From the NCBI GenBank assembly GCA_900314845.1, contig OMWV01000004.1:1-64000 (forward strand): 64,000 nt of DNA, written 5' to 3'. A program made the translations under genes and the position numbers. This DNA is from an uncultured Eubacteriales bacterium (lineage in GTDB: Bacteria > Bacillota > Clostridia > Lachnospirales > Lachnospiraceae). Positions 5,627 to 20,618 of the stretch are shown here, in pieces. The notes under the pieces were generated by a model. That model saw nothing but the letters and a program-made list of their open reading frames with translations. It did no database searches and was not told the origin of the DNA. Within the stretch, counting starts at the first letter, position 1, and every line of letters begins with the position of its first letter.

Positions 5627-6169
5627 TTATAATAATTTTTCAACAGCGGCCCTTACGTTCTTCATATCCTCTGTGGGCTCGAAACGGCTTACAACATTCC
5701 CCTGCCTGTCTACCAGGAACTTTGTAAAATTCCACTTGATGGCGGGACTTGTCTTATAATTCTTATCTATAGTCTTCAGCATAGCGCTCATGGCAAATGC
5801 CTTAGGCCCCTTGCCAAAGCCTTCAAAGCCCTTCTGGCTCTTGAGATAAGTGTAGAGGGGCAGCTCATTCTCCCCGTTCACATCTGATTTTGTCATCTGG
5901 GGAAATTCCGTATTGTACTTGAGAGTGCAGAACTCGTGGATCTCTTCGTCGGTCCCCGGCGTCTGGCCGGCGAACTGATTGCAGGGAATATCTATGATCT
6001 CAAGACCCTTCTCATGAAGATCGGCATACATCTGCTCCAGATCCGTGTACTGGGGCGTGAAGCCGCAGCCGGTCGCTGTGTTCACGATCAGAAGGACCTT
6101 CCCTTTATAGTTGGCAAGTGATATCTCATCCCCCTGCGGGGTCTTTAATGAATAATCGTATACGCTCAT
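5627..6169 (-). CDS. Glutathione peroxidase family thiol peroxidase
   Basis: A 180-residue thioredoxin-fold peroxidase of the glutathione peroxidase family (BtuE/BsaA type), reducing hydroperoxides in the cytoplasm, usually with thioredoxin in bacteria. The active cysteine is Cys35 in NTATGCGFTPQ, where mammalian enzymes carry selenocysteine. The catalytic partners are in PCNQFAGQ and in WNFTKFLVD. The start at 6169 was preferred over an upstream in-frame codon because GGAGAA lies 6 nt before it and MSVYDYSLKT is the usual N-terminus. It heads a two-gene operon with the OhrR-like regulator, as expected for a peroxide-induced defence unit. Confidence 0.88.
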   Translation of the reverse strand: MSVYDYSLKTPQGDEISLANYKGKVLLIVNTATGCGFTPQYTDLEQMYADLHEKGLEIIDIPCNQFAGQTPGTDEEIHEFCTLKYNTEFPQMTKSDVNGENELPLYTYLKSQKGFEGFGKGPKAFAMSAMLKTIDKNYKTSPAIKWNFTKFLVDRQGNVVSRFEPTEDMKNVRAAVEKLL

Positions 6170-6545
6170 GTTCTTTCTCCTTAATTTAATACAGCTGCAG
6201 ACAGTGAAATTGTGCACTTTATCGCTGCCTGCAGCCGTAATAGATAGATAGCAAACAACATGTTACAGGAGGCCTTTCGGCTGTGAAAAGGTAACAAAAA
6301 TGAAAAATACTGCCTTAACTATAGCAAAACTATAATTACTGCATTTATATTGTATCATACATAAATTTTAATTCAACGGGTTTTGTAAAGATTTTTGACT
6401 AAATATGTCAAGAAAATATTAAGATATCTTGCGTGTTATGATATTTTTATTTCCCTTATCCTATTATAACTGCATCCTATTCTTTTCATCGTCAGGTAAT
6501 CAATACAAATGTTCCAGATAATAATATCTGTTAAGGAGGATATCA
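6170..6545. other. Intergenic region between divergent gpx and recombinase genes
   Basis: This 376-nt AT-rich stretch contains the likely gpx promoter (minus strand) and the recombinase Shine-Dalgarno site AAGGAGGA at 6533-6540. Two short inverted repeats are visible: TGTTAC/GTAACA at about 6259-6298, and TATAG/CTATA at about 6320-6333. Either could be a regulator site, for example for the OhrR-like protein, but neither matches a strong known operator consensus. No gene longer than a dozen codons is seen. Confidence 0.4.
6349..6376 (-). promoter_or_regulatory. Possible sigma-A promoter of the gpx-ohrR operon
   Basis: On the minus strand, TTGAAT (6371-6376) and TACAAT (6349-6354) are 16 nt apart, a reasonable -35/-10 pair reading toward the peroxidase gene. 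The implied leader is about 170 nt, which is long, so another promoter closer to the gene cannot be excluded. Confidence 0.4.
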
Positions 6546-7149
<604 letters not shown>

Positions 7150-7161
7150 ATCAGTGCAAAA

Positions 7162-7205
7162 CAGGCGTTTTTACAATAAAGTGTACATTATTGTAAAAAC
7201 GCCTG
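7162..7205. repeat. 18-bp perfect inverted repeat after the recombinase
   Basis: CAGGCGTTTTTACAATAA (7162-7179) and its exact reverse complement (7188-7205) flank an 8-nt spacer that is largely the palindrome TGTACA. It lies 12 nt after the recombinase stop. It could be a transcription terminator whose stem contains the T-tract, or a recombinase binding or crossover site. No second copy was noticed in the window. Confidence 0.75.
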
Positions 7206-7765
7206 ACCTATCAATTTGTATATATCATACCATAGGATATCCATCTTGACAAGTCTATTTATGTAAATTGGTGAAAGCGCATAATAATTTGTATCCTAAA
7301 TACCACCAAAGTTCACAGCAAACTTCTTGTATACACTTCATTTTGGTTATTATGTCAAAAAATAGAAATTATTCTTAATATGAGTAAAAAAGTACACCTT
7401 TTTGAAAGGAAAAGAGTAAAAGTTTTTCGAATTTTACTTAAATTCTCAAGGTGACGCCGACATCGTAGCGAATCTCAAAAGGGTAAGGGAAATGTTTTAT
7501 GGGAGGATGCTTGCAGATAATTTTCTGACGATAACGATAATAATGGATTAACAATATTAAGCGCAACGGATAACAACTAGGGATAGGAAAAATGCGCTTA
7601 TAGAAAATGTTAAACCAATCGGGAAGGAGAAAATTTACAGGGGGTGAGAATGGGAATGCGGTGCTGCAGCAAACGTATATTCAGAATCCCTGGCCTTCTT
7701 GAGATCCAATCCCGCATAAAGGAGTTAACAACAGAAAAACCAAGATAACTATGGGAGGATTTGAA
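7206..7765 (+). other. Long leader region before the TRAP operon
   Basis: About 560 nt precede dctP without a clear gene. There is an inverted repeat TAAGCGCA (7558-7565) / TGCGCTTA (7593-7600), a 10-bp palindrome TGCTGCAGCA at about 7663-7672, and a possible 32-codon open frame at 7650-7748 behind GGGGGTGA, ending 17 nt before the dctP start. Another stretch, about 7420-7551, reads as protein-like (GDADIVANLKRVREMFYGRM) but has no start and may be a gene remnant. No clear promoter was found; the operon promoter and any regulator site should be within this region. Confidence 0.4.
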
Positions 7766-8884
7766 GTGAAAAAGAAGACTGTGAAAGTGATTGTTGCATT
7801 GGCAATGAGTTTAACAATGGCACTAACATGTGCTGCTTGTGGAGGCGGTAAGTCAGGCGGCGGTACTGTGGCAAAGGAATCAGGTGCTGCATCAGCCGCT
7901 GCTCCTTCCGCCGGTTCTAAGGCGGATGGTAAGACCTATGAACTTACATGGGCAGGCATTGGTTCTACAGACGCTATAGACACCTGGATCGGTAATGAGA
8001 TATCCGCTCGTGTTGCCAAGGCGACGGATGATAAGGTTCAGATTAAGGTATATCCTGCCAGCCAGCTGGGCGATCTGAGCCAGGCTTACGATGAGGTTAT
8101 CAGCGGTTCGATAGATATGGGATTTTTCACGATCTATGGAAATTATGATATCAACACTGAGGCAGTTTATACTCCTTATCTGACAACAAATTATGATGAG
8201 TTCAGGACACTGTACAGCAAGGATGGATTCCTCTATAAGAGCATAGATAAGATTCAGCAGGATAGAGGGGTAAAGCTTTTGGGATTTTGGCCTTCCGGTT
8301 ATCTGGGCATCGGATTTACAAAGCTTACGACTCCGGAAGATAAGCTCTTTGACTTTACAACAAAGAAGGATGAGCTGATCCGTGTGCCTTCCATGGATAC
8401 CATGATGGCTTCCGCAAAGGCTATGGGCTTTAAGACGACAACTATTAATTATTCTGATGTTTATACATCTCTTCAGACGGGTGTCTGCGATGGATCGTGG
8501 AACGGCGGTGCGTACGCGAACTATCAGGGCTTCAGAGATGTCCTTAAATATTATGTTGATTACAAGGTCTGCAACGATGTTTATTCATGCGTAATGAATA
8601 GCAACAAGCTTGCATCACTTCCTCAGGAATATCAGGATGCCATCATTAAGATTTCTGATGAGGTTATCAATGAGGGAACAGAAAAAATTGCTGAACAGGA
8701 AGAGAAATCAAAGAAGGATATGGCTGACTACGGTATTAAGGTCATAGAACCTACAGACGAGCAGCGTGCCGAGATGCAGAAGTATTTCTTTGAAAAGGTA
8801 CTCCCTGGCTTCTCTCAGTATTACGGCGAGGACTTTATGAATCAGCTTCTTGAAGAGGCTAAGAAAGTTGATGCGAAACAGTAA
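7766..8884 (+). CDS. TRAP transporter solute-binding lipoprotein (DctP family)
   Basis: This is the extracytoplasmic receptor of a tripartite, ion-gradient-driven carboxylate importer. The start is GTG 7766 with GGGAGG 7 nt upstream. A signal peptide ends in the lipobox CAAC (Cys25), so the mature protein is lipid-anchored, as expected in a Gram-positive cell. After a glycine/alanine-rich linker the DctP domain runs from about residue 57 to the end. Arg206 in LIRVPSMD sits at the position of the conserved arginine that binds the ligand carboxylate in this family, followed by SDVYTSLQTGVCDG. The ligand is therefore probably a carboxylic acid, identity unknown. It is first in the operon. Confidence 0.9.
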   Translation: MKKKTVKVIVALAMSLTMALTCAACGGGKSGGGTVAKESGAASAAAPSAGSKADGKTYELTWAGIGSTDAIDTWIGNEISARVAKATDDKVQIKVYPASQLGDLSQAYDEVISGSIDMGFFTIYGNYDINTEAVYTPYLTTNYDEFRTLYSKDGFLYKSIDKIQQDRGVKLLGFWPSGYLGIGFTKLTTPEDKLFDFTTKKDELIRVPSMDTMMASAKAMGFKTTTINYSDVYTSLQTGVCDGSWNGGAYANYQGFRDVLKYYVDYKVCNDVYSCVMNSNKLASLPQEYQDAIIKISDEVINEGTEKIAEQEEKSKKDMADYGIKVIEPTDEQRAEMQKYFFEKVLPGFSQYYGEDFMNQLLEEAKKVDAKQ

Positions 8885-8928
8885 TCAAAGATATCTGCAA
8901 TGTGGTTATCAATCTGAGAGGAGAGAGA

Positions 8929-9456
8929 ATGAAACCAATCGAAAAGACTGCGATATGGAAGATTCTGGACAAGGTCATGTCTATTATTCTTGTCGTGTTT
9001 GGTCTGTGTCTAATTGTAGTCATTGGAGCAGCAGTTGTAGTGCGATATATCATGCACTCTGCCCTGTTCGGAAATGAGGAGATCCTCGCACTACTTGCTA
9101 TATGGGTCTATTGGATAGGTGGAGCTTATGGAAGTTATACCGATACGCATATTTCTGCTGATATGACTGATCTTTTCTTCAAAAACGAAAAGCTTAAGCA
9201 TTCAGTCAGAGTTGTTATTAGAGCAGTCACGGTATTTATTACAGGTTGTTTTGCCTACTGGTCAATATTCAAGTATGCAATTCCGAACCTTGTTCATCCA
9301 ATTTACACAACAGGTCTTCGTATCCCTAAATACACGAGCCAGTTGGCTATGACGATAGCATTTTGCCTGATGTTTTTTTACGCGATCTACCATTTTATCA
9401 GAACGATACACCCTATGAAAGAAGATGCGGCTGAGACAGGAGGTGGTGCTGCATGA
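8929..9456 (+). CDS. TRAP transporter small permease (DctQ family)
   Basis: The protein (175 aa) has four predicted membrane helices, at about residues 18-40, 48-66, 88-108 and 130-150, with the family segment EEILALLAIWVYWIGGAYG in the second. It bridges the binding protein and the large permease. The start at 8929 was chosen over an upstream codon because AGGAGAG precedes it and MKPIEK fits family N-termini. Its stop overlaps the start of the large permease by 4 nt (ATGA), implying translational coupling. Confidence 0.88.
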   Translation: MKPIEKTAIWKILDKVMSIILVVFGLCLIVVIGAAVVVRYIMHSALFGNEEILALLAIWVYWIGGAYGSYTDTHISADMTDLFFKNEKLKHSVRVVIRAVTVFITGCFAYWSIFKYAIPNLVHPIYTTGLRIPKYTSQLAMTIAFCLMFFYAIYHFIRTIHPMKEDAAETGGGAA

Positions 9457-10763
9457 TACTTGCAATAACATTTATTATCCTTGTGGCGCTGCTGCTTCTT
9501 GGAGTACCTGTTCCTTTCAGTTTTGGAGGAGCAACGATTTTCTTGATTGCTGTATTCGGATTTGATCCCGCTGCAATTTTTGCCACCAGCTTTACTCAGC
9601 TGAGTTCTATTACTTTGCTTGCTATTCCTCTTTTCATAATAGCTGGCGGCATTATGGAGAAGGGGCATATTGGAGAAGCTCTGATTAACTGGGTAAATGT
9701 ATTTGTCGGCCGGTCAAAGGCTGGACTTACATGGGTTACAAGTATTGCATCTGCAATTTTTGGTTCAATCTGCGGCTCCGGCGCTGCCACACTTTCCTGT
9801 ATTGGATCGATCGTAGCACCCATGATGAAGGAAAAGAAGTATCCCGTAGGAATAGCGGCTGCGTGCGCTTGCTGTACTGCACCGCTTGGCCTATTAATCC
9901 CTCCTAGCGCAATGCAGATCCTGGTTGCCTGGACTCTTAACATATCGGTGCTTGCATGCTTCTTATCAACAGTTATACCGGGCATCGTACTTACAATATT
10001 GTTAGGCGTGGTTTCCCAGGTTCTGCTGCGCAACCATCACGAGATAGAAACTGAGCCCAAGGTTACCAGAAAAGAGTTTGGAAAGCTCTTTGCAAACCGC
10101 ACAAAGACAGCCATTCCTGCGCTGATCATGCCCGTTATCATTCTTGGCGGTATATATTCCGGTGCCATGACAGCTACAGAGTCAGCTGGTATTGCGGTCA
10201 TTTATTCAATCCCTGTTGCTATGTTCATTTATAAAAAACTGAATGGGCGCGGACTTGCAATGACCATCCGCGAGGGCGCTGTCTCAACAGGTGTTGTTAT
10301 GTGTATGATCGGTATCGTAATGATGATGAGCCGTATTCTTACACAGGTGGGTCTGCCTCAGCAGATCTGCAATATGCTTCTCAGCGTATCCAGCAATAAA
10401 TATGTAATTCTGCTCATGGTCAACATTTTCATGGTTATTCTGGGAATGATCATGGATGATACAAGTGCTACTCTGCTTGCAGCTCCGATACTTTTCCCGG
10501 TGATGCAGCAGATCGGCGTTTCCCCTTATCAGTTTGCAGCAATCATGGGCGTAAACATTGGTATGGGAAACATTACTCCTCCGAGCGCACCTTTCCTTTA
10601 TCTGTCTGCACGTATATTCAAGACATCTGCAGATAAGATCATGAAGCCTGCACTCTGCATGATTTTAGGAGCATATCTGCCGACACTCATTCTTACAACG
10701 ATGATACCTGATTTTTCACTGACACTGCCGAGGCTTATTCTTGGCGCAAAGCTTGGTATCTGA
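9453..10763 (+). CDS. TRAP transporter large permease (DctM family)
   Basis: The 436-residue channel subunit of the TRAP importer has about 12 hydrophobic segments. Typical DctM features are the N-terminal LLLGVPVPFSFG, SICGSGAATLSCIG around residues 103-116, the LIPPSAMQ loop near 147-154 and NITPPSAPFLYLSARI near 369-384. The repeated PPSA motifs mark the two re-entrant hairpins of the IT superfamily transport sites. It moves solute together with sodium or protons. It lies 100 nt before the flavoprotein gene, which suggests that the enzymes downstream act on the imported compound. Confidence 0.92.
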   Translation: MILAITFIILVALLLLGVPVPFSFGGATIFLIAVFGFDPAAIFATSFTQLSSITLLAIPLFIIAGGIMEKGHIGEALINWVNVFVGRSKAGLTWVTSIASAIFGSICGSGAATLSCIGSIVAPMMKEKKYPVGIAAACACCTAPLGLLIPPSAMQILVAWTLNISVLACFLSTVIPGIVLTILLGVVSQVLLRNHHEIETEPKVTRKEFGKLFANRTKTAIPALIMPVIILGGIYSGAMTATESAGIAVIYSIPVAMFIYKKLNGRGLAMTIREGAVSTGVVMCMIGIVMMMSRILTQVGLPQQICNMLLSVSSNKYVILLMVNIFMVILGMIMDDTSATLLAAPILFPVMQQIGVSPYQFAAIMGVNIGMGNITPPSAPFLYLSARIFKTSADKIMKPALCMILGAYLPTLILTTMIPDFSLTLPRLILGAKLGI

Positions 10764-10863
10764 TGATTTGTCTTTTTTACGAAATGCTTTGAAATTACTG
10801 GAGGGAGAACCTCAAGTACATAAACTGTCGACATTATTTTTTGAAAGAAAAAGGAGATTTGCT

Positions 10864-12321
10864 ATGGCACTGAAAACTGGAGCACAGTACATTGCTGAGA
10901 TGAAGAAGATGCGTCCCAATGTATATAAATGGGGCAGGTTGATTGAAGATGTTACTACGGATCCGGCTACTGCAGCACATATAAAGAATGTTGCTATGTG
11001 GTACGACAAGAGTAATGATCCAAAGACACAGGATCTGTATACGACGATTTCTGCTTTATCTGGCAAGAGAGCTCATCGGTGGAACACATTGATGACATGT
11101 CCTGAAGACGTTAGAGGCAATGAGGACATGAAGAGAGATGGCTATCGCAGCTGCGGTTCCTGCATGGGACCTGTATGCGCTGGCTGGACTGTTATGAATG
11201 CTGCATATGGTCCCACCTATGATATGGATGTCGAGCTTGGTACAAATTATCATGAGCGTCTGAAGAACTTCATGATGTTTGCTGAGGAGCATGCACTTTC
11301 CATGGCTGGAGCACTTACAGATGCAAAGGGCGATCGTTCAAAGAAGCCAAATGAGCAGGAAAATGATGATGTATATCTTCATGTTTCTAAGCAGGATGAG
11401 AAAGGTGTTTATCTCTCCGGTTATAAGATTCAGATCTGTGGAACAGCGGGTGCTCAGTATGTTATGGTAATGCCTACGTCAGGTCTTAAGCCTGGCCAGG
11501 AAAAATATGCTATTGTTGCAGCTATTCCCAGAGACGCAGAGGGCCTGACTATCGTAGAGACAAGACGTCCTTCCGACTGCCGTGTCGAGGAAGAAGGCTG
11601 GGATGGTATCAAATCAGGAACGACACAGGGATTCCTGCTGTTCGATAATGTTTTTGTTCCCCATGAGCATGTTTTCTTAAATGGTGAAGTTAAGTACGCA
11701 GGAGCAATACTGGGCAACTTTACATCAATATATCGTGCGGCTATAGGCGGATGTGTTGCCGGCCAGGGCGATGTCATGATTGGTGCAGCTCTTGGAATGG
11801 CACGTGCAAATGGTCTTACACAGAAAGCTTTCCAGGATAAGCTGACCCAGATGGCAATAAACAATGAGACAACGTATGCAGGCGGTCTTGGTGCTATTTA
11901 CGCCGGGAAACAGCATCCGGCAGGTGCATGGTATCCGAATGCGCTCCTTGCACATGTTAACAAGATCCATGTGGCACTTTTACCCTGGCAGACAAAGCAG
12001 CTTGCTCAGGAAATTTCCGGTGGTGTAACAGAGACAGGATGTATGCCTTCCTATAAGGATATGATGAATCCTGAATATGGCCCTAAGCTTATAGAATCCA
12101 TGTCCGCGGCAGTAGGTGGAGAAGACAGGACAAAGATGGCACGTCTTGTTGAGTGGCTGACAGTCGGCAGCGGTATCCCTGGATGTATGCATGGCGGCGG
12201 CTCACCGGATACAGCAAAAGCTGTTGTTAAGGGAGCTACTAAGTGGGATACTTATGTCGATTATGCGAGAAATTTAGCAAACGTTGAAGCTCCGCTCAAG
12301 GAAGAAAAGAAAAAAAGATAA
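10864..12321 (+). CDS. HpaB/4-hydroxybutyryl-CoA dehydratase superfamily flavoprotein
   Basis: The 485-residue protein belongs to the acyl-CoA-dehydrogenase-like superfamily that contains 4-hydroxyphenylacetate 3-hydroxylase (HpaB) and the FAD/[4Fe-4S] 4-hydroxybutyryl-CoA dehydratase/isomerase (AbfD). In an anaerobic setting the dehydratase or isomerase type is more plausible than an oxygenase. FAD-site segments such as SGYKIQICGTAGAQ (about 185-198) and FDNVFVPHEHVF (260-271) are present. The cluster region is unusual: Cys97, Cys100 and Cys105 lie in SCGSCMGPVC, Cys297 in AIGGC, and Tyr290 stands where AbfD has its ligand histidine. No CoA-transferase gene is nearby. The substrate is unknown. 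The start has GGAGA upstream. Confidence 0.82.
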   Translation: MALKTGAQYIAEMKKMRPNVYKWGRLIEDVTTDPATAAHIKNVAMWYDKSNDPKTQDLYTTISALSGKRAHRWNTLMTCPEDVRGNEDMKRDGYRSCGSCMGPVCAGWTVMNAAYGPTYDMDVELGTNYHERLKNFMMFAEEHALSMAGALTDAKGDRSKKPNEQENDDVYLHVSKQDEKGVYLSGYKIQICGTAGAQYVMVMPTSGLKPGQEKYAIVAAIPRDAEGLTIVETRRPSDCRVEEEGWDGIKSGTTQGFLLFDNVFVPHEHVFLNGEVKYAGAILGNFTSIYRAAIGGCVAGQGDVMIGAALGMARANGLTQKAFQDKLTQMAINNETTYAGGLGAIYAGKQHPAGAWYPNALLAHVNKIHVALLPWQTKQLAQEISGGVTETGCMPSYKDMMNPEYGPKLIESMSAAVGGEDRTKMARLVEWLTVGSGIPGCMHGGGSPDTAKAVVKGATKWDTYVDYARNLANVEAPLKEEKKKR

Positions 12322-12341
12322 TTAACATTCCTTTCTCTTTC

Positions 12342-12383
12342 TCATAGGATGTTTGTTGTCTGCAAGCAATAGGCATCCTATGA
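12342..12383 (+). terminator. Hairpin between flavoprotein and oxidoreductase genes
   Basis: TCATAGGATG (12342-12351) pairs exactly with CATCCTATGA (12374-12383) around a 22-nt loop, and a T-rich stretch (TTTATTTTTTAG) begins shortly after. It may be a partial terminator or a processing site that separates the expression of dctPQM and the flavoprotein from the downstream enzymes. Confidence 0.5.
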
Positions 12384-12430
12384 TAATCAGATTTATTTTT
12401 TAGAACATTATTATCAGGAGGATGAAAAAA

Positions 12431-12991
12431 ATGCTTGAAGTAAGATGGCATGGGCGTGGAGGCAATGGAGCATTTACAGCTGCAAAGCTTCTTGGCTACG
12501 CCGCTTCGGTAAAAGGGGGAAAATATGCGCAGGCTTTCCCTTCATTTGGACCTGAACGCCGAGGCGCACCGGTACAGGGATTTACCAGGATTAGTGATGA
12601 GGTCATTACAGATCATTCACAGGTCTATACCTGTGACAGCGTTATCGTGCTTGATGACACACTTTGTGATGTTGTTGATGTTACGGCTGGTCTGAAAGAA
12701 AACAGTACTCTTATCATTAACAGTTTACAGAGTAAGGAAGAGTTTATGGCTCGTCCGAATTTTAAAAATGTAAAAAATCTTTACATTATCGATGCAACAG
12801 ACATCGCTCTCAAGATTTTAGGTGCTCCTATTGTTAACACAGTCATGCTTGGTGCAGCTGTCGGAGTGACAGGTATGGTATCTATTGAGGCAATTGAGGG
12901 TGCGGTTGATGGAATGATGGCTCCTAACCTTCGTGAGAAAAATAAAAAAGCGATCCGCTGTGCATATGATCTTATGAAAGGAGCTAAATGA
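12431..12991 (+). CDS. 2-oxoacid:ferredoxin oxidoreductase, gamma subunit
   Basis: This 186-residue protein is the catalytic gamma domain (PorG type) of a multisubunit 2-oxoacid:acceptor oxidoreductase, which converts a 2-oxoacid and CoA to acyl-CoA, CO2 and reduced ferredoxin. The start has the family's WHGRGGNG motif (residues 6-13) and AFPSFGPERRGAPVQGF (about 36-52), both close to CoA/TPP contacts. The start was moved to 12431 because AGGAGG at 12416-12421 abuts the earlier in-frame ATG. The order gamma-delta-alpha-beta is that of pyruvate:ferredoxin oxidoreductases of the four-subunit type. Confidence 0.9.
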   Translation: MLEVRWHGRGGNGAFTAAKLLGYAASVKGGKYAQAFPSFGPERRGAPVQGFTRISDEVITDHSQVYTCDSVIVLDDTLCDVVDVTAGLKENSTLIINSLQSKEEFMARPNFKNVKNLYIIDATDIALKILGAPIVNTVMLGAAVGVTGMVSIEAIEGAVDGMMAPNLREKNKKAIRCAYDLMKGAK

Positions 12992-12992
12992 T

Positions 12993-13295
12993 ATGAGTAA
13001 GCCCAAGGTAGGTTCAAATGTTCATATTCCTACTTCTTATGATTCTATGTTCTTTGGAGCCAGCAATGGCGTAGGATGTTTGCCCACAGTAAACTCCGGA
13101 TTCCGGACATTTCATCCGGTATTTGATTATGATACCTGCATTAATTGCAATATGTGCTGGATTTACTGTCCAGAGGGATGTATTGACAGATCATCCGGCA
13201 GGATGGAAGTCGATATGGATTACTGCAAAGGCTGCGGTATATGCGCCCATGAGTGCCCCAAGAAATGCATAACAATGGTAAGGGATGGTGAATGA
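12993..13295 (+). CDS. 2-oxoacid:ferredoxin oxidoreductase, delta (ferredoxin) subunit
   Basis: A 100-residue PorD-type subunit carrying two [4Fe-4S] clusters that pass electrons from the catalytic core to ferredoxin. Both cysteine motifs are complete: CINCNMCWIYCPEGC, starting near residue 49, and CKGCGICAHECP, starting near 78. The tryptophan inside the first motif is typical of PorD. The start lies 1 nt after the stop of the gamma gene, and the stop overlaps the region before the alpha start by design of a tight operon. Confidence 0.92.
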   Translation: MSKPKVGSNVHIPTSYDSMFFGASNGVGCLPTVNSGFRTFHPVFDYDTCINCNMCWIYCPEGCIDRSSGRMEVDMDYCKGCGICAHECPKKCITMVRDGE

Positions 13296-13296
13296 T

Positions 13297-14463
13297 ATGA
13301 GCAAAGATTTCCTTTCTGCAAATGAAGCTGCTGCATACGGCGTATTACTTTCTCGCCCCAAGGTAGTCTCTGCTTATCCTATCACTCCGCAGACTACACT
13401 GGTTGAAAAACTGGCTGATTTCCTTGCACAGGGAAAAGGTCATTTTAAGTACATGATGGTTGAGAGCGAGCATAGTGCTATGGCTGCCGCACTTGGTGTA
13501 TCCATGATGGGTGCTCGAGTATTTACGGCGACATCCTCTCAGGGTCTCTTATATATGTGTGAAATGCTTCACTATGTCAGTGGTGCACGTCATCCTATCG
13601 TTATGGTGGATGCAAACCGTTCTACAGCTACTCCCTGGAATATTTACGGTGATCAGCGTGACGTTTATGCAATGCGTGATGCAGGATGGATCATGCTTTT
13701 TGCAGAAAGTGGCCAGGAGGCGCTTGATACTGTAATTCAGGCTTACAGGATAGCAGAAGATCCTACGGTAATGACGCCGGTAATGGTAAATCTTGACGGA
13801 TTTACCCTGACGCATACCTATGATCTGGTGGATATACCGGACCAGGAACTGGTTGATAAGTACTTACCTCCACTTAATACTACTAACAAAATGGATCCGA
13901 ATGATCCCAAGACTCTTTGTATGACAGTTGGTCCGGATTTCCACTCAGAGGGACGTTACCTGCAGCAGAAGGCTTTTGAGAATGCTGCTGAGGTAATTGT
14001 AAAGGCAGATAAAGAATATGCAGCACTGACAGGCCGTTCATACGGTGGCATGATCGAGGAGTACAGATGCGAGGATGCGGAACTTGTTCTTGTAGCAACA
14101 GGAAGTGTAGCTGGAACAACACGTATTGTCGTTGATGGACTTCGTGCTCAGGGCAAGAAAGTTGGACTTGTAAAAGTCAGATGTTATCGTCCATTCCCGA
14201 AGGCATATTTTGCTGGACTTGAAAACAGGTTTAAGGGTGTTGGCGTTATTGACCGCAGTATTTCGTTTGGTTTTGACGGCACTCTCTTCTCAGAAGTTAA
14301 ATCGGCTATGTACGGATCTGGCGCTAAGGTACAGGATTATGTAGTTGGTCTGGGTGGACGTGATATTCCGAAGGAATTGATAGCGCAGATGTTTGAAAAA
14401 ATTGAGAAGCGTGTTGAAGGCGTTCAGGAAGATGAAGTTCAGTTCTTAGGAATGAGGTGGTAG
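13297..14463 (+). CDS. 2-oxoacid:ferredoxin oxidoreductase, alpha subunit
   Basis: The alpha subunit (388 aa) holds the pyrimidine-binding side of the TPP site and the transketolase-like C-terminal domain. YPITPQT (27-33) is the family signature, with ESEHSAMAAALGVSMMGARVFTATSSQGL following as separate conserved blocks around 60-85. The length and the absence of fused ferredoxin domains match PorA rather than indolepyruvate or fused pyruvate enzymes. The start at 13297 is preceded by GGTGA and avoids the longer frame that overlaps the delta gene. The 2-oxoacid used cannot be fixed from sequence alone; pyruvate or a short-chain relative is favoured by gene order. Confidence 0.9.
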   Translation: MSKDFLSANEAAAYGVLLSRPKVVSAYPITPQTTLVEKLADFLAQGKGHFKYMMVESEHSAMAAALGVSMMGARVFTATSSQGLLYMCEMLHYVSGARHPIVMVDANRSTATPWNIYGDQRDVYAMRDAGWIMLFAESGQEALDTVIQAYRIAEDPTVMTPVMVNLDGFTLTHTYDLVDIPDQELVDKYLPPLNTTNKMDPNDPKTLCMTVGPDFHSEGRYLQQKAFENAAEVIVKADKEYAALTGRSYGGMIEEYRCEDAELVLVATGSVAGTTRIVVDGLRAQGKKVGLVKVRCYRPFPKAYFAGLENRFKGVGVIDRSISFGFDGTLFSEVKSAMYGSGAKVQDYVVGLGGRDIPKELIAQMFEKIEKRVEGVQEDEVQFLGMRW

Positions 14464-14465
14464 TC

Positions 14466-15371
14466 ATGGCAATTAATCTTAAAAATCTGCCTGAGGATGA
14501 AATATTTTATGGTGCTAAGACCTGTCAGGGATGCGGCGGTCTGATGGCATGCCGTATGGTTATGAAGGTTATCGGTCCGAAATCATGTATAGCGATTCCT
14601 GCAGGCTGTATGTCAGCTACTACTACTGTTTATCCTCAATCATCACTTTTTGTAAATAACACAGTTACCGCATTCCCTGGCCTTGCTTCTACGATTGCCG
14701 GTATGTCAGTTGGCGGCGAAGTAATGGGATGGGATGAGGATACAACTTATGTAGCATTCGGCGGTGATGGCGGTACCGTTGATATCGGTATTCAGGCACT
14801 GTCCGGAGCAGCAGAAAGAAATGACAATATTCTTTATGTCTGCTACGACAATGATGCTTACATGAATACAGGCAATCAGAAATCAGGAAGTACTCCCGAA
14901 TATGCCTGGAGTACGACCACTCCTACGGGACCCTGTTCAAAGGGTGCAAAAAATAAGTACAGGAAGAGCCTGATTGAGATTGTGGCTGCCCATAGAGTTC
15001 CTTATGCGGCTACTGCAAGTATCGCGTTCCCTATGGATCTGCTTCGCAAGGTTGAAAAGGCAAAGCAGTATCGTGGATGTAGAGTTCTTCATATTATGTC
15101 ACCTTGTCCTACAGGTTGGGGTTATGACCCTTCCAAGACGGTAGAACTTGCAAAGCTCGCCGTTGAGACAGGTATGTGGTGGCTTGGAGAGTATGAGAAT
15201 GGAGAATTCAGACTTACCTATAAGCCGAAGAAACTTCATGAATCCACAGAGGCATATTTTAAGGGTCAGCGTCGTTTCCGTCATCTGCAGCCTGAAGATA
15301 TTGCAGAAATTGACAGGAATCGTGATAACGAATGGAAGCGTCTGAAGCGCGTTTTCAATATAAACGAGTAG
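14466..15371 (+). CDS. 2-oxoacid:ferredoxin oxidoreductase, beta subunit
   Basis: The TPP-diphosphate/magnesium subunit (301 aa). GDGG at 100-103 with the downstream NDAYMNTGNQ segment is the TPP signature. Four cysteines in the PorB arrangement (Cys20, Cys23, Cys48 and Cys213 in SPCPTGW) should bind the proximal [4Fe-4S] cluster. The start at 14466 follows GAGGTGG inside the end of the alpha gene; the two genes are separated by 2 nt. Together with the three preceding genes it gives a complete oxidoreductase. Confidence 0.92.
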   Translation: MAINLKNLPEDEIFYGAKTCQGCGGLMACRMVMKVIGPKSCIAIPAGCMSATTTVYPQSSLFVNNTVTAFPGLASTIAGMSVGGEVMGWDEDTTYVAFGGDGGTVDIGIQALSGAAERNDNILYVCYDNDAYMNTGNQKSGSTPEYAWSTTTPTGPCSKGAKNKYRKSLIEIVAAHRVPYAATASIAFPMDLLRKVEKAKQYRGCRVLHIMSPCPTGWGYDPSKTVELAKLAVETGMWWLGEYENGEFRLTYKPKKLHESTEAYFKGQRRFRHLQPEDIAEIDRNRDNEWKRLKRVFNINE

Positions 15372-15400
15372 TGAAAATCAATCACAGAAAGGAGAAAATT

Positions 15401-16627
15401 ATGAATGATTTAAGCTATTTGAAAGATTATCCCATTGCAATTTTGGGAGCAGGTGCTGTTGGCAAGACTGTAGGTGCTGATTGTGTATTAGCAGGACAGA
15501 AGGTTCATATTTGTGATCTTCCCCCGTTTTCAGAATCTACGCTGAAGGATCTGGATAAGACAGGCCTTACGATCGAAGGTATGCAGACAAACCGTTTTGC
15601 TTTTTATCGCGGCGGTACTGCTCATTTCGATCTTATTACCGATGATGTTGCTGAGTGTGTTAAGGGCTGCAAGCTCGTTGTTGTTTGCACACCGGCTGTA
15701 GGTCATAAGTTCTTCTTTGAAAAACTTATCCCTGCTCTTGAGGATGGTATGATTGTCCATATGATCCCTGACAACTTTGGATCACTTCTTCTTCGCAAGA
15801 TGATGCGTGAAGCTGGCTGTGATAAGAAGATTATCATTGGCGGATGGTCATCAGCTCCTTATGGAACTCGTTTTGTAACAGAGGGCGGACTTCCTATGCC
15901 TAAGGTGGCTCCTATCTATAGAGCAATCACTCTCCGTGGTGCATCACTTCCCAGCACTGATCAGGAAGTATTCCTGGAATCTTCTAAGTATATCGGCGCA
16001 TTTGATGCCATTACTCAGGGCCTTGGCGTTGAAGGCGGACATACAGTTATGGATATCGGTTTCTCCAATGTTAACCCTGTTATTCATGTTCCCGGTACTA
16101 TCCTTGGTGCTAGTACAATGGAGAACTGGGGCGTAATTTACGGCGAGAATAAGTATGATTACTCTATTTACAGCCATACATTTTCACCTTCTGTTTCAGA
16201 AGTACAGTGGGCTTTCTATAATGAAGAGAAGGCACTTGCGGATACTATGGGTGTAGGAATTCAGCCGTTCGATCGTGACATCTTCTTCCAGCGTACAAGC
16301 GTTTTAGGACCTGAATACATGGGCGACGGTGTAAATGTTCCGTTTACAGAGCAGTGGACAACCGGATATGGCACTGGTCCTTTCACCATCCAGAATCGTT
16401 ATGTGACTGAAGATGTTCCTATCGGATGCCACATGTATCATGAACTGGGAAAGAAGTTTGGTGTACCTACTCCTGTAGTAGATGCTTTCATCACTCTTGG
16501 CAGCGTTATGACAGGTAAGAATTTCTATGAGACAGGTATCACATGCAAGGATATTGGTATCGATCATATGACAAAGGAAGAGCTGCTTAAGTACCTTGAT
16601 GAGGGTATTTATACTCCGGCCAAGTAA
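15401..16627 (+). CDS. NAD(P)-dependent opine dehydrogenase family protein
   Basis: A 408-residue protein with an N-terminal Rossmann domain (GAGAVG at 16-21) and a C-terminal domain of the octopine/nopaline dehydrogenase type. NPVIH at 225-229 is the family's catalytic NPxxH motif, giving His229. Such enzymes reversibly join a 2-oxoacid and the amino group of an amino acid or amine, with NAD(P)H, to form an N-(carboxyalkyl) product. In a cluster with a 2-oxoacid oxidoreductase, the oxidative, cleaving direction is plausible: opine to amine plus 2-oxoacid. Ketopantoate-reductase-like enzymes share the first domain but lack this motif. AAGGAGA precedes the start. Confidence 0.82.
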   Translation: MNDLSYLKDYPIAILGAGAVGKTVGADCVLAGQKVHICDLPPFSESTLKDLDKTGLTIEGMQTNRFAFYRGGTAHFDLITDDVAECVKGCKLVVVCTPAVGHKFFFEKLIPALEDGMIVHMIPDNFGSLLLRKMMREAGCDKKIIIGGWSSAPYGTRFVTEGGLPMPKVAPIYRAITLRGASLPSTDQEVFLESSKYIGAFDAITQGLGVEGGHTVMDIGFSNVNPVIHVPGTILGASTMENWGVIYGENKYDYSIYSHTFSPSVSEVQWAFYNEEKALADTMGVGIQPFDRDIFFQRTSVLGPEYMGDGVNVPFTEQWTTGYGTGPFTIQNRYVTEDVPIGCHMYHELGKKFGVPTPVVDAFITLGSVMTGKNFYETGITCKDIGIDHMTKEELLKYLDEGIYTPAK

Positions 16628-16654
16628 TTGTTTAGCAGGAAGGAGTTGAAAGCT

Positions 16655-17419
16655 ATGGATAAGTGGCAAGGATATCTTCAGAATACTGATGATCTGATGA
16701 AGACCGTAGCGGTCGACGGTTCTTATGTCGGAGGTCATGCAATAGGCATTATCGCGGTAGATCTTGTCTACCCTAAATTGCCCGGAAACGTTGTAAATGC
16801 AACGACTTTCGATTTTCCGGTCTTGTATAAGAAGGTTTCTTTCGAAATAGAGCAGCTGTTCGCCGGCGACCCGGCACTCGAGAAAATGATTATTGATGCT
16901 GCCAAAGAACTGGTTGCAGATGGCGCTCGTGCAATAATCGGTGCGTGCGGATATTTTGCACATTTCCAGAAATCTGTCGCAGCTGCTGTGGACGTACCAG
17001 TTTTTATGTCCAGCTTATGCCAGCTGCCGCTGATAAAAATAGGGCTCAAATCTGATCAGAAGATTTTAGTAATGTGCGCAAGCGGTGACAGTGTCAATCA
17101 GGAATTTTTCTCAAAAGTAGGGGCAAAGGTTGAGGATTGTATAATCCAAGATGTGGGCAGTATGGATAGTTTTGCTCCGATCCGCTGGGGCAAGAAGATC
17201 TTAGATAACAAAAAGCTGACAGAAGATCTTGCTGCTTTGGCAGTCAAGGTTTGCGATGAACATCCGGAAGTTGGTTCAATTCTACTCGAATGCAGTGATC
17301 TTCCTCCATATGCCTGCGAGATTCAAAGAGCGACTGGATTGCCGGTTTATGATTTTATATCATTGATTAACTGGGTTGAACATGCTGTTGTCCAGAAGCG
17401 TTACTACGGCTTCTTCTAA
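16655..17419 (+). CDS. Aspartate/glutamate racemase superfamily protein
   Basis: A 254-residue protein with the two-cysteine plan of the Asp/Glu/hydantoin racemase and maleate isomerase superfamily: Cys98 in GACGYF and Cys213 in LLECSDLPPYA, each a potential acid/base. The second motif is close to that of hydantoin and aspartate racemases. Within this operon it could set the stereochemistry of the imported substrate before the opine-dehydrogenase-like step. AAGGAG lies upstream of ATG 16655. The actual substrate is unknown, and a decarboxylase or isomerase of the same fold is also possible. Confidence 0.75.
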   Translation: MDKWQGYLQNTDDLMKTVAVDGSYVGGHAIGIIAVDLVYPKLPGNVVNATTFDFPVLYKKVSFEIEQLFAGDPALEKMIIDAAKELVADGARAIIGACGYFAHFQKSVAAAVDVPVFMSSLCQLPLIKIGLKSDQKILVMCASGDSVNQEFFSKVGAKVEDCIIQDVGSMDSFAPIRWGKKILDNKKLTEDLAALAVKVCDEHPEVGSILLECSDLPPYACEIQRATGLPVYDFISLINWVEHAVVQKRYYGFF

Positions 17420-17456
17420 ACAATAATTTGACTTGTACTCCAAATATATATAGGCA

Positions 17457-17485
17457 GGGTCGTTTCATCTCGTATGAGACGGCCC
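17457..17485 (+). terminator. Hairpin before the EutH-like gene
   Basis: GGGTCGTTTCAT (17457-17468) pairs with ATGAGACGGCCC (17474-17485), 12 bp including two G-U pairs, around a 5-nt loop. Only a weak T-run follows, so read-through into the permease gene 60 nt downstream is likely. Confidence 0.5.
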
Positions 17486-17545
17486 TTCCACATTATTTGG
17501 GTATAAGCCGATGTTTATCTTTCGGTATCCGGGGAGAGAAATGTT

Positions 17546-18784
17546 ATGTTTGATGAATTGATTCACGAGTTAACAAATGTATCAGATTTCACAGCAAGTC
17601 TTCATGAATATATCACCCACCTTTCATTTAATACTGTTATCGTCACGATAATGATGATATTTATGATCGTGGGTGCAGTAGATAAAGCACAGGGAAATAA
17701 GCGTGGTTATGGTCAGGCTTTTGACCAGGGTTTTCAGGCAATGGGGCCTCTTGCGATCTCTATGGTAGGAGTCATTGCGGCAGCGCCCGTCCTGGGTATG
17801 GTTTTTGAACCAATCGTTGGTCCCATATATAAGGCTATCGGTTCATCGCCTGCCATTTTTGCTACTACTCTGCTTCTGGCTGATTCAGGCGGTTATCCTC
17901 TTGCTGTGGAAATGGCAGGAGACGATGTTGCTATGGGTCAGTTTGCAGGTATCATTGTTGGATGTACAATGGGCTGCATTCTTCTTTTTGATATTCCTGT
18001 CGCCCTTACTCTTATCAATAAAAAAGATCGTCCGCTTTTGGCATGTGGCATTCTTGTAGGTGTTATCACTGCCCCTGTTGGATGTATAGTTGGTGGAATC
18101 GTCATGTCATTGACTACAGAGTATCATATGGCTTTTGGACGCATGATCTGTGCCCTGCTTCCGGTAATTATCGTAGCGGCAATATTGGCTGTTGGTCTAT
18201 GGTTTAAGCCTATTGCCCTCATGAATGGATTTTCAAAGTTTGGAGCTTTTGTAACAGCATTGATAGGGATTTTTGTGGCAATTGCTGTTTTTCAGTATGA
18301 GACAGGGATCCGGTTCCCCCTTTTTCAGCTGATGGTTGAACCGAATTCAGAGGGTATCTCTCCTTTGGCAAATAGTGTGGAGATACTTGGCGATATTTCT
18401 TTTATCTTGATTGGAGCTTTCCCGATGGTTGAATGGGTAAAACGGCATTTTGGACCGCTGCTTGCTAAGATAGGGAAGAAGATCGGACTGGATGAGACTG
18501 CATCCGCCGGCATCGTAGCGACGATAGCCAATAATATTCCGACGTTTTCCATGCTGAAAGATATGAACCCCAAGGGAAAGCTTATGAATGTCGCATTTGC
18601 CTCCTGCGCAGCTTTTATGTTTGGCGACCACCTGGGATTTACAGCAGGGGTGAATTCTACCATGATCCTGCCCATGATCTTTGCGAAGTTAGCCTGCGGA
18701 CTCAGTGCTCTGGCTCTTGCAAATATTCTTTCCCCTCAGCTTTTGGCCAAGGCGGAGCATGCAGTGGATGACATGGCGGAATAG
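17546..18784 (+). CDS. EutH-like permease
   Basis: A 412-residue membrane protein with about ten hydrophobic segments. Its early sequence (FMIVGAVDKAQGN, QAMGPLAISMVGV, FATTLLLADSGGYPLA) closely follows the pattern of EutH, the ethanolamine permease of eut operons. No ethanolamine ammonia-lyase, shell protein or other eut gene is present, so the transported amine may be another one. As the last gene of the catabolic block, it may import a related amine or export the amine released by the opine-dehydrogenase-like enzyme. GGGGAGAG precedes the start. Confidence 0.8.
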   Translation: MFDELIHELTNVSDFTASLHEYITHLSFNTVIVTIMMIFMIVGAVDKAQGNKRGYGQAFDQGFQAMGPLAISMVGVIAAAPVLGMVFEPIVGPIYKAIGSSPAIFATTLLLADSGGYPLAVEMAGDDVAMGQFAGIIVGCTMGCILLFDIPVALTLINKKDRPLLACGILVGVITAPVGCIVGGIVMSLTTEYHMAFGRMICALLPVIIVAAILAVGLWFKPIALMNGFSKFGAFVTALIGIFVAIAVFQYETGIRFPLFQLMVEPNSEGISPLANSVEILGDISFILIGAFPMVEWVKRHFGPLLAKIGKKIGLDETASAGIVATIANNIPTFSMLKDMNPKGKLMNVAFASCAAFMFGDHLGFTAGVNSTMILPMIFAKLACGLSALALANILSPQLLAKAEHAVDDMAE

Positions 18785-18949
18785 ACAATTTTTATTATTT
18801 ACCGCCGATTTGTGGGAATACCCGGTAATTGAATGGAATTGGACTGAATTTTGTACAATTTTCCCTCGCAGAATGTGCTATTCTATGTGTAGTAGAACAT
18901 GCAATGTTCTGCTTTCGTAAGCCCCTTGGACCACCTGATTGCAATTTAT

Positions 18950-19048
18950 CTTTCGCGGGAGGATTGCCAGGGAGGCATGCGATGTTTCCTTCCAGCGCCC
19001 CAGGCATAAGGACGTACGATATTGAAGTCGGGCAGGACCCGCAGAAAG
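18950..19048 (+). promoter_or_regulatory. Structured leader RNA before ctc (candidate L25 autoregulatory leader)
   Basis: CTTTCGCGGG (18950-18959) pairs with CCCGC-A-GAAAG (19038-19048) to make a 10-bp closing stem with one bulged A. Inside, TGCC (18965-18968) can pair with GGCA (19031-19034) across a small internal loop, and GGGAGG with CCTTCC forms a hairpin at about 18970-18992. The 3' strand of the closing stem abuts the ctc Shine-Dalgarno AGAGG, so folding could hide it. A separate small hairpin, AGAACAT/ATGTTCT, lies at about 18895-18911. The pairing was found by eye; autoregulation by L25 is inferred. Confidence 0.5.
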
Positions 19049-19058
19049 AGGTATAGTA

Positions 19059-19649
19059 ATGGAAACATTAAAGGCAGCCAAGAGAGATATGAGTATCAAG
19101 GCAAAGAAGCTCAGGAAGAGCGGATTTGTCCCTGCATCCGTTACAGGAAGAGAGATGAAGGAATCTCTTAACATTTCCATCAGCGAGAAGGATGCGGAGA
19201 TGTTCATGAAGAAGAACGTCATCGGAAGCAAGGCAGTTCTGGATGTAGAGGGAACCGTTTATAATGTTCTGCTCAAGAGTGCCGATTTCGATCCGCTTAA
19301 GCACAGATTTTTGGAGATGACCTTCCAGCAGCTGGTAGCAGATGAGAAGATAAAGTCCCAGGCGGAGATCATTTTCGAACATGAAGATCTGGCGAAGGGA
19401 TTTATCACAAGAACAGTATCCGAGATAGAGTATAAGGCTTATCCCAAGGATATGGTCGATAAGATCGTCATTGATCTTTCTCAGTATCCGATCGGTACAA
19501 GCCTGACGGTTGCGGATCTTGACCTGGCGAAGAATCCGGATGTCGATATCCTTACATCGCTTGAAGGCACAGTGCTCCATGTGGCTGAACATTCAAAGGA
19601 TGCGGCAGAAGCTGAGGAAGAGGAAACTGAGGCTGAGCCTCAGGCCTGA
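19059..19649 (+). CDS. ctc: 50S ribosomal protein L25/general stress protein Ctc
   Basis: The protein (196 aa) binds 5S rRNA in the large ribosomal subunit. Residues 1-90 form the L25 domain, with the characteristic GFVPASVTGR-like loop (22-31) and LLKSADFDPLKHRFLEMTFQ; residues about 98-180 form the TL5/Ctc beta-domain, and the tail is a run of glutamates and alanines. The two-domain length is typical of Ctc. It is monocistronic, with a structured leader before it and a strong terminator after it. Confidence 0.93.
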   Translation: METLKAAKRDMSIKAKKLRKSGFVPASVTGREMKESLNISISEKDAEMFMKKNVIGSKAVLDVEGTVYNVLLKSADFDPLKHRFLEMTFQQLVADEKIKSQAEIIFEHEDLAKGFITRTVSEIEYKAYPKDMVDKIVIDLSQYPIGTSLTVADLDLAKNPDVDILTSLEGTVLHVAEHSKDAAEAEEEETEAEPQA

Positions 19650-19688
19650 TCCGGAGATATCCGGACAGTTTATATTGAAATTTCAAAA

Positions 19689-19721
19689 ATGCAGGTACCC
19701 GGGTGGTGCCTGTATTTTTTT
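19689..19721 (+). terminator. Rho-independent terminator after ctc
   Basis: ATGCAGGTACC (19689-19699) pairs with GGTGCCTGTAT (19705-19715), including two G-U pairs, around a CGGGT loop, and is followed directly by a T-tract. This is a textbook intrinsic terminator for ctc. Confidence 0.85.
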
Positions 19722-19793
19722 CGGAAATGCAAGAGCATTTCTGCGGTTTATAAAAAAGGGGTTGAATGTTATAATAGATTCAGGTGATTTTTC

Positions 19794-20618
19794 ATGGACA
19801 GATTTACGAAGGAAGAAATAGAGAAATTAAAGGATCAGGCGGCGGCTACGGCCGGGAAGAGCATCACATGGGGGATCCGGCAGACCAGAGAACTCAGGTT
19901 TTACCTTTTCAAATTTGCCTGCAGGCTGGCGATTTTTATCAGCATATTTGTCCTGTATCTGACTCACAGGGAGATCATGATCTCCTTTATGAACGCCCCT
20001 TTTTTCTATCAGTTTACCCTTTTTCACCTGATCTGGATGGTCTTCATGGTCATCATGATCGCCCATCTGATCCCCAACAACAGGCTGAGCATGGCCTGGC
20101 GCAAGGCAAGGGAGAACGAGTACAGGCCGGTGGAGGGCTATGACAGGTTAAGGCTCCTGGAATTTGTCCAGCGCATGAATATAGGGGCCTGGAAGGTTCT
20201 GCTTGTCTGGCTCTGCTTTAACGCCTTCTTCGCGGTGCTCTATCTGACGGATGTGATAAAGGCGGGGGATCTGATGATGCTGTCAGTCTTTTATTTTCTG
20301 AGCGATTACATCTGCATCCTCTATTTCTGCCCCTTCCAGTCATTTCTCATGAAGAACAAATGCTGCATCAATTGCAGGATCTACGACTGGGGGCATTTTA
20401 TGATGTTCACGCCCATGCTTTTCATAAAGAATTTTTACAGCTGGAGCCTGTTTTTTACATCTCTTATCGTCCTCATCCACTGGGAGATCGTCTACGCGGC
20501 GCATCCCGAGAGGTTCTGGGAGGGCTCGAACAAGACTCTGCAGTGCAAAAACTGCCGGGAGAAGACCTGCCAGATCAAGAGAAAGATCACGAAGAAACCA
20601 TTAGCGGAGAGAAGCTGA
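19794..20618 (+). CDS. Uncharacterised membrane protein with two cysteine clusters
   Basis: I do not recognise a named family. The 274-residue protein has about five membrane helices (roughly 40-62, 72-95, 135-155, 160-180 and 212-235). A cytoplasmic-looking loop near 188-200 contains KCCINCRIYDWGH, and the C-terminal tail has CKNCREKTC near 250-258, followed by a basic stretch. The Cys/Asp/His content could bind metal or an Fe-S cluster. The gene follows ctc's terminator and precedes the Enzyme I-like gene by 16 nt, so it may share that transcript. The Shine-Dalgarno site is weak. Confidence 0.6.
   Translation: MDRFTKEEIEKLKDQAAATAGKSITWGIRQTRELRFYLFKFACRLAIFISIFVLYLTHREIMISFMNAPFFYQFTLFHLIWMVFMVIMIAHLIPNNRLSMAWRKARENEYRPVEGYDRLRLLEFVQRMNIGAWKVLLVWLCFNAFFAVLYLTDVIKAGDLMMLSVFYFLSDYICILYFCPFQSFLMKNKCCINCRIYDWGHFMMFTPMLFIKNFYSWSLFFTSLIVLIHWEIVYAAHPERFWEGSNKTLQCKNCREKTCQIKRKITKKPLAERS

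Follow-up and report, generated by a model that had tools for sequence, protein, structure and literature searches.

A sister group of 4-hydroxybutyryl-CoA dehydratase marked by a distinct, invariant signature in the active site

Among flavin radical enzymes, the oxygen-sensitive 4-hydroxybutyryl-CoA dehydratase (4HBD, AbfD) is the textbook example of one that works without B12, SAM or ATP. The window examined here, a stretch of 64,000 nucleotides from an uncultured Eubacteriales bacterium (contig OMWV01000004.1), encodes a flavoprotein with the fold of this enzyme. The locus raises the question whether the protein is a 4HBD, an HpaB-type oxygenase or, as a first-pass annotation had proposed, a third type in the superfamily with a new reaction. 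A clade that has the 4HBD scaffold and the cluster cysteines without the residues credited with radical formation offers a direct test of the origin of the radical, and it probably marks an unknown step of anaerobic acyl-CoA metabolism. The generic HpaB (4-hydroxyphenylacetate 3-hydroxylase) domains on its genes would mislead pathway inference in anaerobes.

Gene, fold and phylogeny

The open reading frame (Table 1) is genuine. A ribosome site, AAAGGAG, lies 8 nt upstream of the ATG at 10864, and this start agrees with the N-terminus MxLKTG of most close relatives. The product of 485 residues belongs to the HpaB/AbfD superfamily by its fold and by both Pfam domains, PF11794 (HpaB_N, 216 bits) and PF03241 (HpaB, 131 bits), each above the gathering score. 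Over its full length it matches the solved 4HBD structures 6VJR and 1U8V with ca 35% identity, and the AlphaFold2 model (pLDDT 89) superposes on both with a TM-score of 0.94 and an rmsd of 1.6–1.8 Å; the comparison that yields the Z values given below has 1.4–1.6 Å over 471–475 residues.

The HpaB-type flavin monooxygenases (4-hydroxyphenylacetate 3-monooxygenase, TftD, HadA) have the same two Pfam domains and a related fold (TM about 0.76–0.85, rmsd 3.3–6.0 Å), but the identity is only ca 20%, and the structure comparison gives Z values of 34–39 for them versus about 50 for 4HBD. Unlike the protein studied here, these oxygen-dependent enzymes align without a cysteine at any position of the cluster ligands. 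The reading of the flavoprotein as an HpaB oxygenase was ruled out by the gene context and by the NCBIfam scores, which miss the equivalog cut-offs (HpaB-1, 118 bits vs 480; HpaB-2, 69 vs 885). No flavin reductase (the HpaC partner) was seen in the window operon (7751–18784).

A named-genome scan and several genome samples yielded 36 distinct members of the clade, with a pairwise identity of at least 44% and a mean of 59%. For comparison, 33 canonical 4HBD sequences were used. In the phylogeny, the clade is monophyletic with a long stem, lies outside the 4HBD clade and is sister to it with a support of 100/100. Together with the signature described below, which is its own, and its separation from HpaB, this makes the proposed third type in the superfamily well supported. 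The hosts are Bacillota, delta-proteobacterial, Aquificota, Ignavibacterium and Thermoplasmatota genomes, the carriers being mostly anaerobes; about 1% of the genomes in the class sample and about 3% in the phylum sample carry the gene, some in two or three copies. No paper on the clade was found among the open-access literature, and it appears to be a widespread and previously undescribed sister group of 4HBD.

Two other branches were observed in passing. The sequences L025, L057, L058 and L059 form a further distinct 4HBD-like group, in which His292, Tyr296 and Lys300 are kept while Glu455 is replaced by Ala or Ser, and which may be another functional type. The canonical-type 4HBD relatives L050, L052 and L053 have GAGPP replacing GAGSP and constitute a separate well-supported branch.

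Table 1. Features of the locus, in window coordinates; fractions refer to the 36 clade members.
Feature	Positions	Strand	Observation
TRAP transporter DctP, DctQ, DctM, upstream of the flavoprotein gene	7751..10763	+	
AbfD/HpaB-fold flavoprotein, 485 aa, new clade	10864..12321	+	
Cys97	11152..11154	+	Cys in 6/36, Thr/Ser/Arg in the other 30; unlikely ligand
Cys100 = AbfD cluster ligand Cys99	11161..11163	+	36/36
Cys105 = AbfD cluster ligand Cys103	11176..11178	+	36/36
Cys192, at AbfD Thr190 position	11437..11439	+	28/36, Ala in the remainder
Gln255, at AbfD Glu257 position	11626..11628	+	34/36
Tyr290, at AbfD ligand His292 position	11731..11733	+	34/36; Glu once, His once
Ile294, at AbfD Tyr296 position	11743..11745	+	35/36
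Cys297 (in GGC) = AbfD cluster ligand Cys299	11752..11754	+	36/36
Cys393, in clade-specific ETGC insertion (2 residues, absent from 4HBD)	12040..12042	+	36/36
Cys441 (PGC), at AbfD Ser456, replaces Glu455-Ser456 loop	12184..12186	+	35/36
2-Oxoacid:ferredoxin oxidoreductase (POR) gamma, delta, alpha, beta	12422..15371	+	
Opine/octopine-dehydrogenase-like NAD(P) enzyme	15401..16627	+	best solved match 1BG6
Asp/Glu-racemase-family protein (PRK07475)	16628..17419	+	

The active-site signature

In AbfD, the cluster is reportedly bound by C99, C103, H292 and C299, while Y296, deprotonated by E455, is said to reduce the FAD, with E257 helping via T190. In the canonical set, T190, C99, E257, H292, Y296, C299, K300, E455 and S456 are each found in 33 of the 33 sequences. 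The corresponding residues of the clade were taken from the alignment on 1U8V numbering.

The first-pass annotation had read Cys97, Cys100 and Cys105 as a rearranged first set of ligands. All three residues are indeed in the sequence, and Cys100 and Cys105 are invariant, but Cys97 lies outside the motif, and its conservation speaks strongly against it as a cluster ligand. Nor is the AbfD pair rearranged: C99 and C103 align with Cys100 and Cys105, and the spacing is CX4C in the clade versus CX3C in AbfD because a single residue, Gly102 (35/36), has been inserted. The alignment with AbfD thus bears out the altered spacing and the Tyr in place of His292, while showing that the C99/C103 pair is still present. 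The distal Cys297 is kept throughout the clade, and Tyr290 occupies the position of the ligand histidine in nearly all members, both as had been noticed. Given this conservation of Cys100, Cys105, Cys297 and Tyr290, the pattern is no product of chance. Three of the four AbfD ligands are accordingly retained as cysteines, the fourth being changed from His292 to Tyr290.

The earlier list of ligands was also incomplete, as it lacked the clade-specific Cys393 and Cys441. Near the latter, a 4-residue deletion removes Glu455 of AbfD. Position 290 is Glu in L070 and His in L093, both of which retain Cys100, Cys105, Cys297 and Cys393, and Thr is found at position 441 in L068/L086. Since positions 290 and 441 vary while Cys393 never does, the latter is a better candidate for the fourth ligand than Tyr290 or Cys441. 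The model supports Cys100, Cys105 and Cys297 as the three shared ligands; its pLDDT is about 80 in the Cys393 block and below 50 in the Cys441 loop (436–440). On the conservation pattern, a differently bound cluster or an all-cysteine site is plausible, and we infer that the cluster would be held by C100, C105, C297 and, most likely, C393.

The difference from AbfD extends far beyond a single ligand. The relay set T190, E257, Y296, K300 and E455 is represented in the clade by Cys or Ala, Gln, Ile, Val and a deletion, respectively, the valine being Val298, which directly follows Cys297 in 36 of 36 members. With the radical relay of 4HBD replaced essentially in its entirety, the clade enzyme cannot generate a radical in the manner of 4HBD. 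A new reaction in the clade, as proposed, is plausible, because every known catalytic residue of 4HBD has been replaced.

Origin and gene neighbourhoods

The GC content is 39–46% in the region 6001–20000 versus about 48–56% for most of the remaining window, and the third-position GC of the operon, about 0.38–0.45, is lower than in the rest. A resolvase-like reading frame (6700–7149) adjoins this low-GC island, and at the scores used no clade member was found in any other sampled genome of the same genus or family. Taken together, the low GC, the nearby resolvase-like frame and the absence from sampled relatives fit a horizontal acquisition of the gene. Since a canonical 4HBD (L002) is present in the genome as well, the flavoprotein gene need not fill that role.

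In the window, the genes for DctPQM are followed by those for the flavoprotein, the four POR subunits, the opine-dehydrogenase-like enzyme and the racemase-family protein. Directly 3' of the operon there is a gene of the EutH (ethanolamine permease) family (17546–18784; Pfam, 379 bits). The operon contains no acyl-CoA dehydrogenase (ACAD) or ETF and no CoA-transferase. Its own genes say little about the substrate, the best relatives of the TRAP binding protein being generic DctP/SiaP proteins and the POR matching only generic pyruvate/oxalate-type enzymes. No riboswitch was found at the gathering score, and the promoter/terminator scan gave results close to the shuffled expectation.

An 83% relative, L033 (uncultured Flavonifractor), has the same gene order from dctP to the racemase, and L034 (Bacilliculturomica massiliensis) a shuffled version of the operon with MttB and a corrinoid protein. 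ACAD and EtfBA adjoin the clade gene in L035–L037, L041, L042, L045 and L082–L086. Nearby genes for activation of acids encode a CoA-transferase (L038, L039, L076, L078), a PaaK-type ligase (L045, L080, L082, L086) or a SucCD-like ligase (L087). POR is found in the window, L033–L037, L040, L083, L084 and L090, and a thiolase lies beside the clade gene in a few loci. These neighbours, that is, ACAD, ETF, CoA-transferase or CoA-ligase and POR, point to an acyl-CoA substrate, a setting in common with 4HBD. The shared context would be one in which an organic acid is converted to its CoA ester, or the ester is made by POR, followed by flavin-linked enoyl/acyl-CoA chemistry. As the neighbourhoods vary between lineages, the clade members may use different substrates.

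Some of the neighbours are related to amines. MttB and the corrinoid protein recur in L043 and L044, RACo occurs in L087, a BCCT transporter in L079, and an ornithine-cyclodeaminase family gene in L083, with a same-looking gene in L084. The opine-dehydrogenase-like gene is shared by the window, L033, L034 and L037. The MttB neighbours are nearest to glycine betaine and trimethylamine methyltransferases, which gives no substrate assignment.

Two further recurrent neighbours were seen. One is a conserved protein of ca 460 residues (L039:3015–4385, L045:3502–4920, L080:9713–11086, and L076), which looks like a permease and has no Pfam match. The others are PrdR-like sigma-54 activators (L039:6700–8871, L035:56–1492, L038, L080 and L082).

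Possible reactions

We now consider what the enzyme might do. With moderate confidence, we take it to be an uncharacterised FAD/[4Fe-4S] acyl-CoA lyase or isomerase, sister to 4HBD, with probably an all-cysteine cluster and with Tyr290 facing the substrate. Within this reading, the binding of FAD and a [4Fe-4S] cluster and the use of a CoA thioester are very likely, and the clade enzyme probably catalyses a new type of reaction with acids that anaerobes carry as CoA esters. Tyr290, freed from its duty as a ligand, could serve as an acid/base or redox residue, and Cys441 would sit in the loop that bears Glu455 in AbfD. The acyl-CoA would undergo elimination or isomerisation at its beta/gamma carbons, involving a C−O or C−N bond, to yield an enoyl-CoA that could be consumed by the neighbouring ACAD/ETF or thiolase pathway. 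Since the tyrosine-to-FAD priming relay of 4HBD is absent, the priming electron may be external or come from Tyr290; an external source could be ETF, or else ferredoxin that the co-encoded POR has reduced. In the window operon, an imported acid would be converted to a 2-oxo acid by the OcDH-like dehydrogenase and then to an acyl-CoA by POR.

The C−N option is drawn from the amine-related neighbours, and as a special case it is attractive but unproven. A possible analogy, should the clade eliminate amines from acyl-CoAs, is BbuA, a flavoenzyme of the ACAD fold that eliminates trimethylamine from gamma-butyrobetainyl-CoA (PMC8364193). It differs in being acyl-CoA-dehydrogenase-like with ca 10% identity to 4HBD, and a cluster is not described for it in the passages considered. 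Only tentatively can one go as far as to propose a third superfamily class of flavin/[4Fe-4S] radical enzymes, with an all-Cys cluster on C100/C105/C297/C393. Either an external electron or Tyr290 would prime such an enzyme, which would then remove an amine, or some other poor leaving group, from the CoA ester of an acid derived from a compound resembling an amino acid or a betaine.

Another option considered was a two-electron acyl-CoA oxidoreductase with the ACAD fold, the sole function of its cluster being to pass electrons between the FAD and ferredoxin or ETF. The missing radical-generating relay is in line with this scenario, as is the presence of an adjoining ETF in about one third of the loci and of POR in another third. 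However, ETF is usually accompanied by an ordinary ACAD that accounts for it, and the loop carrying Glu455 is deleted, which leaves this option doubtful.

It is rather unlikely that the protein is a plain flavoprotein devoid of the cluster, with the cysteines acting as catalytic thiols or having structural roles. The loss of the ligand His292 would agree with this, and the conservation of the non-ligand residues Cys192, Cys393 and Cys441 could mean thiol chemistry, but the three cysteine ligands are invariant, their backbone positions superpose on those of AbfD, and the carriers are mostly anaerobic.

A 4HBD-type activity on 4-hydroxybutyryl-CoA/vinylacetyl-CoA, suggested by the common fold, the identity to 1U8V/6VJR and the three retained ligands, is quite improbable, considering that 36 distant relatives share one fixed pattern of replacements at T190, E257, H292, Y296, K300 and E455 and that a canonical copy is already present in the genome. 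Finally, the cluster arrangement of the first-pass annotation, on C97, C100, C105 and C297, can practically be set aside: all four residues occur in this protein, but 30 of the 36 members, while keeping everything else, have Thr, Ser or Arg at position 97.
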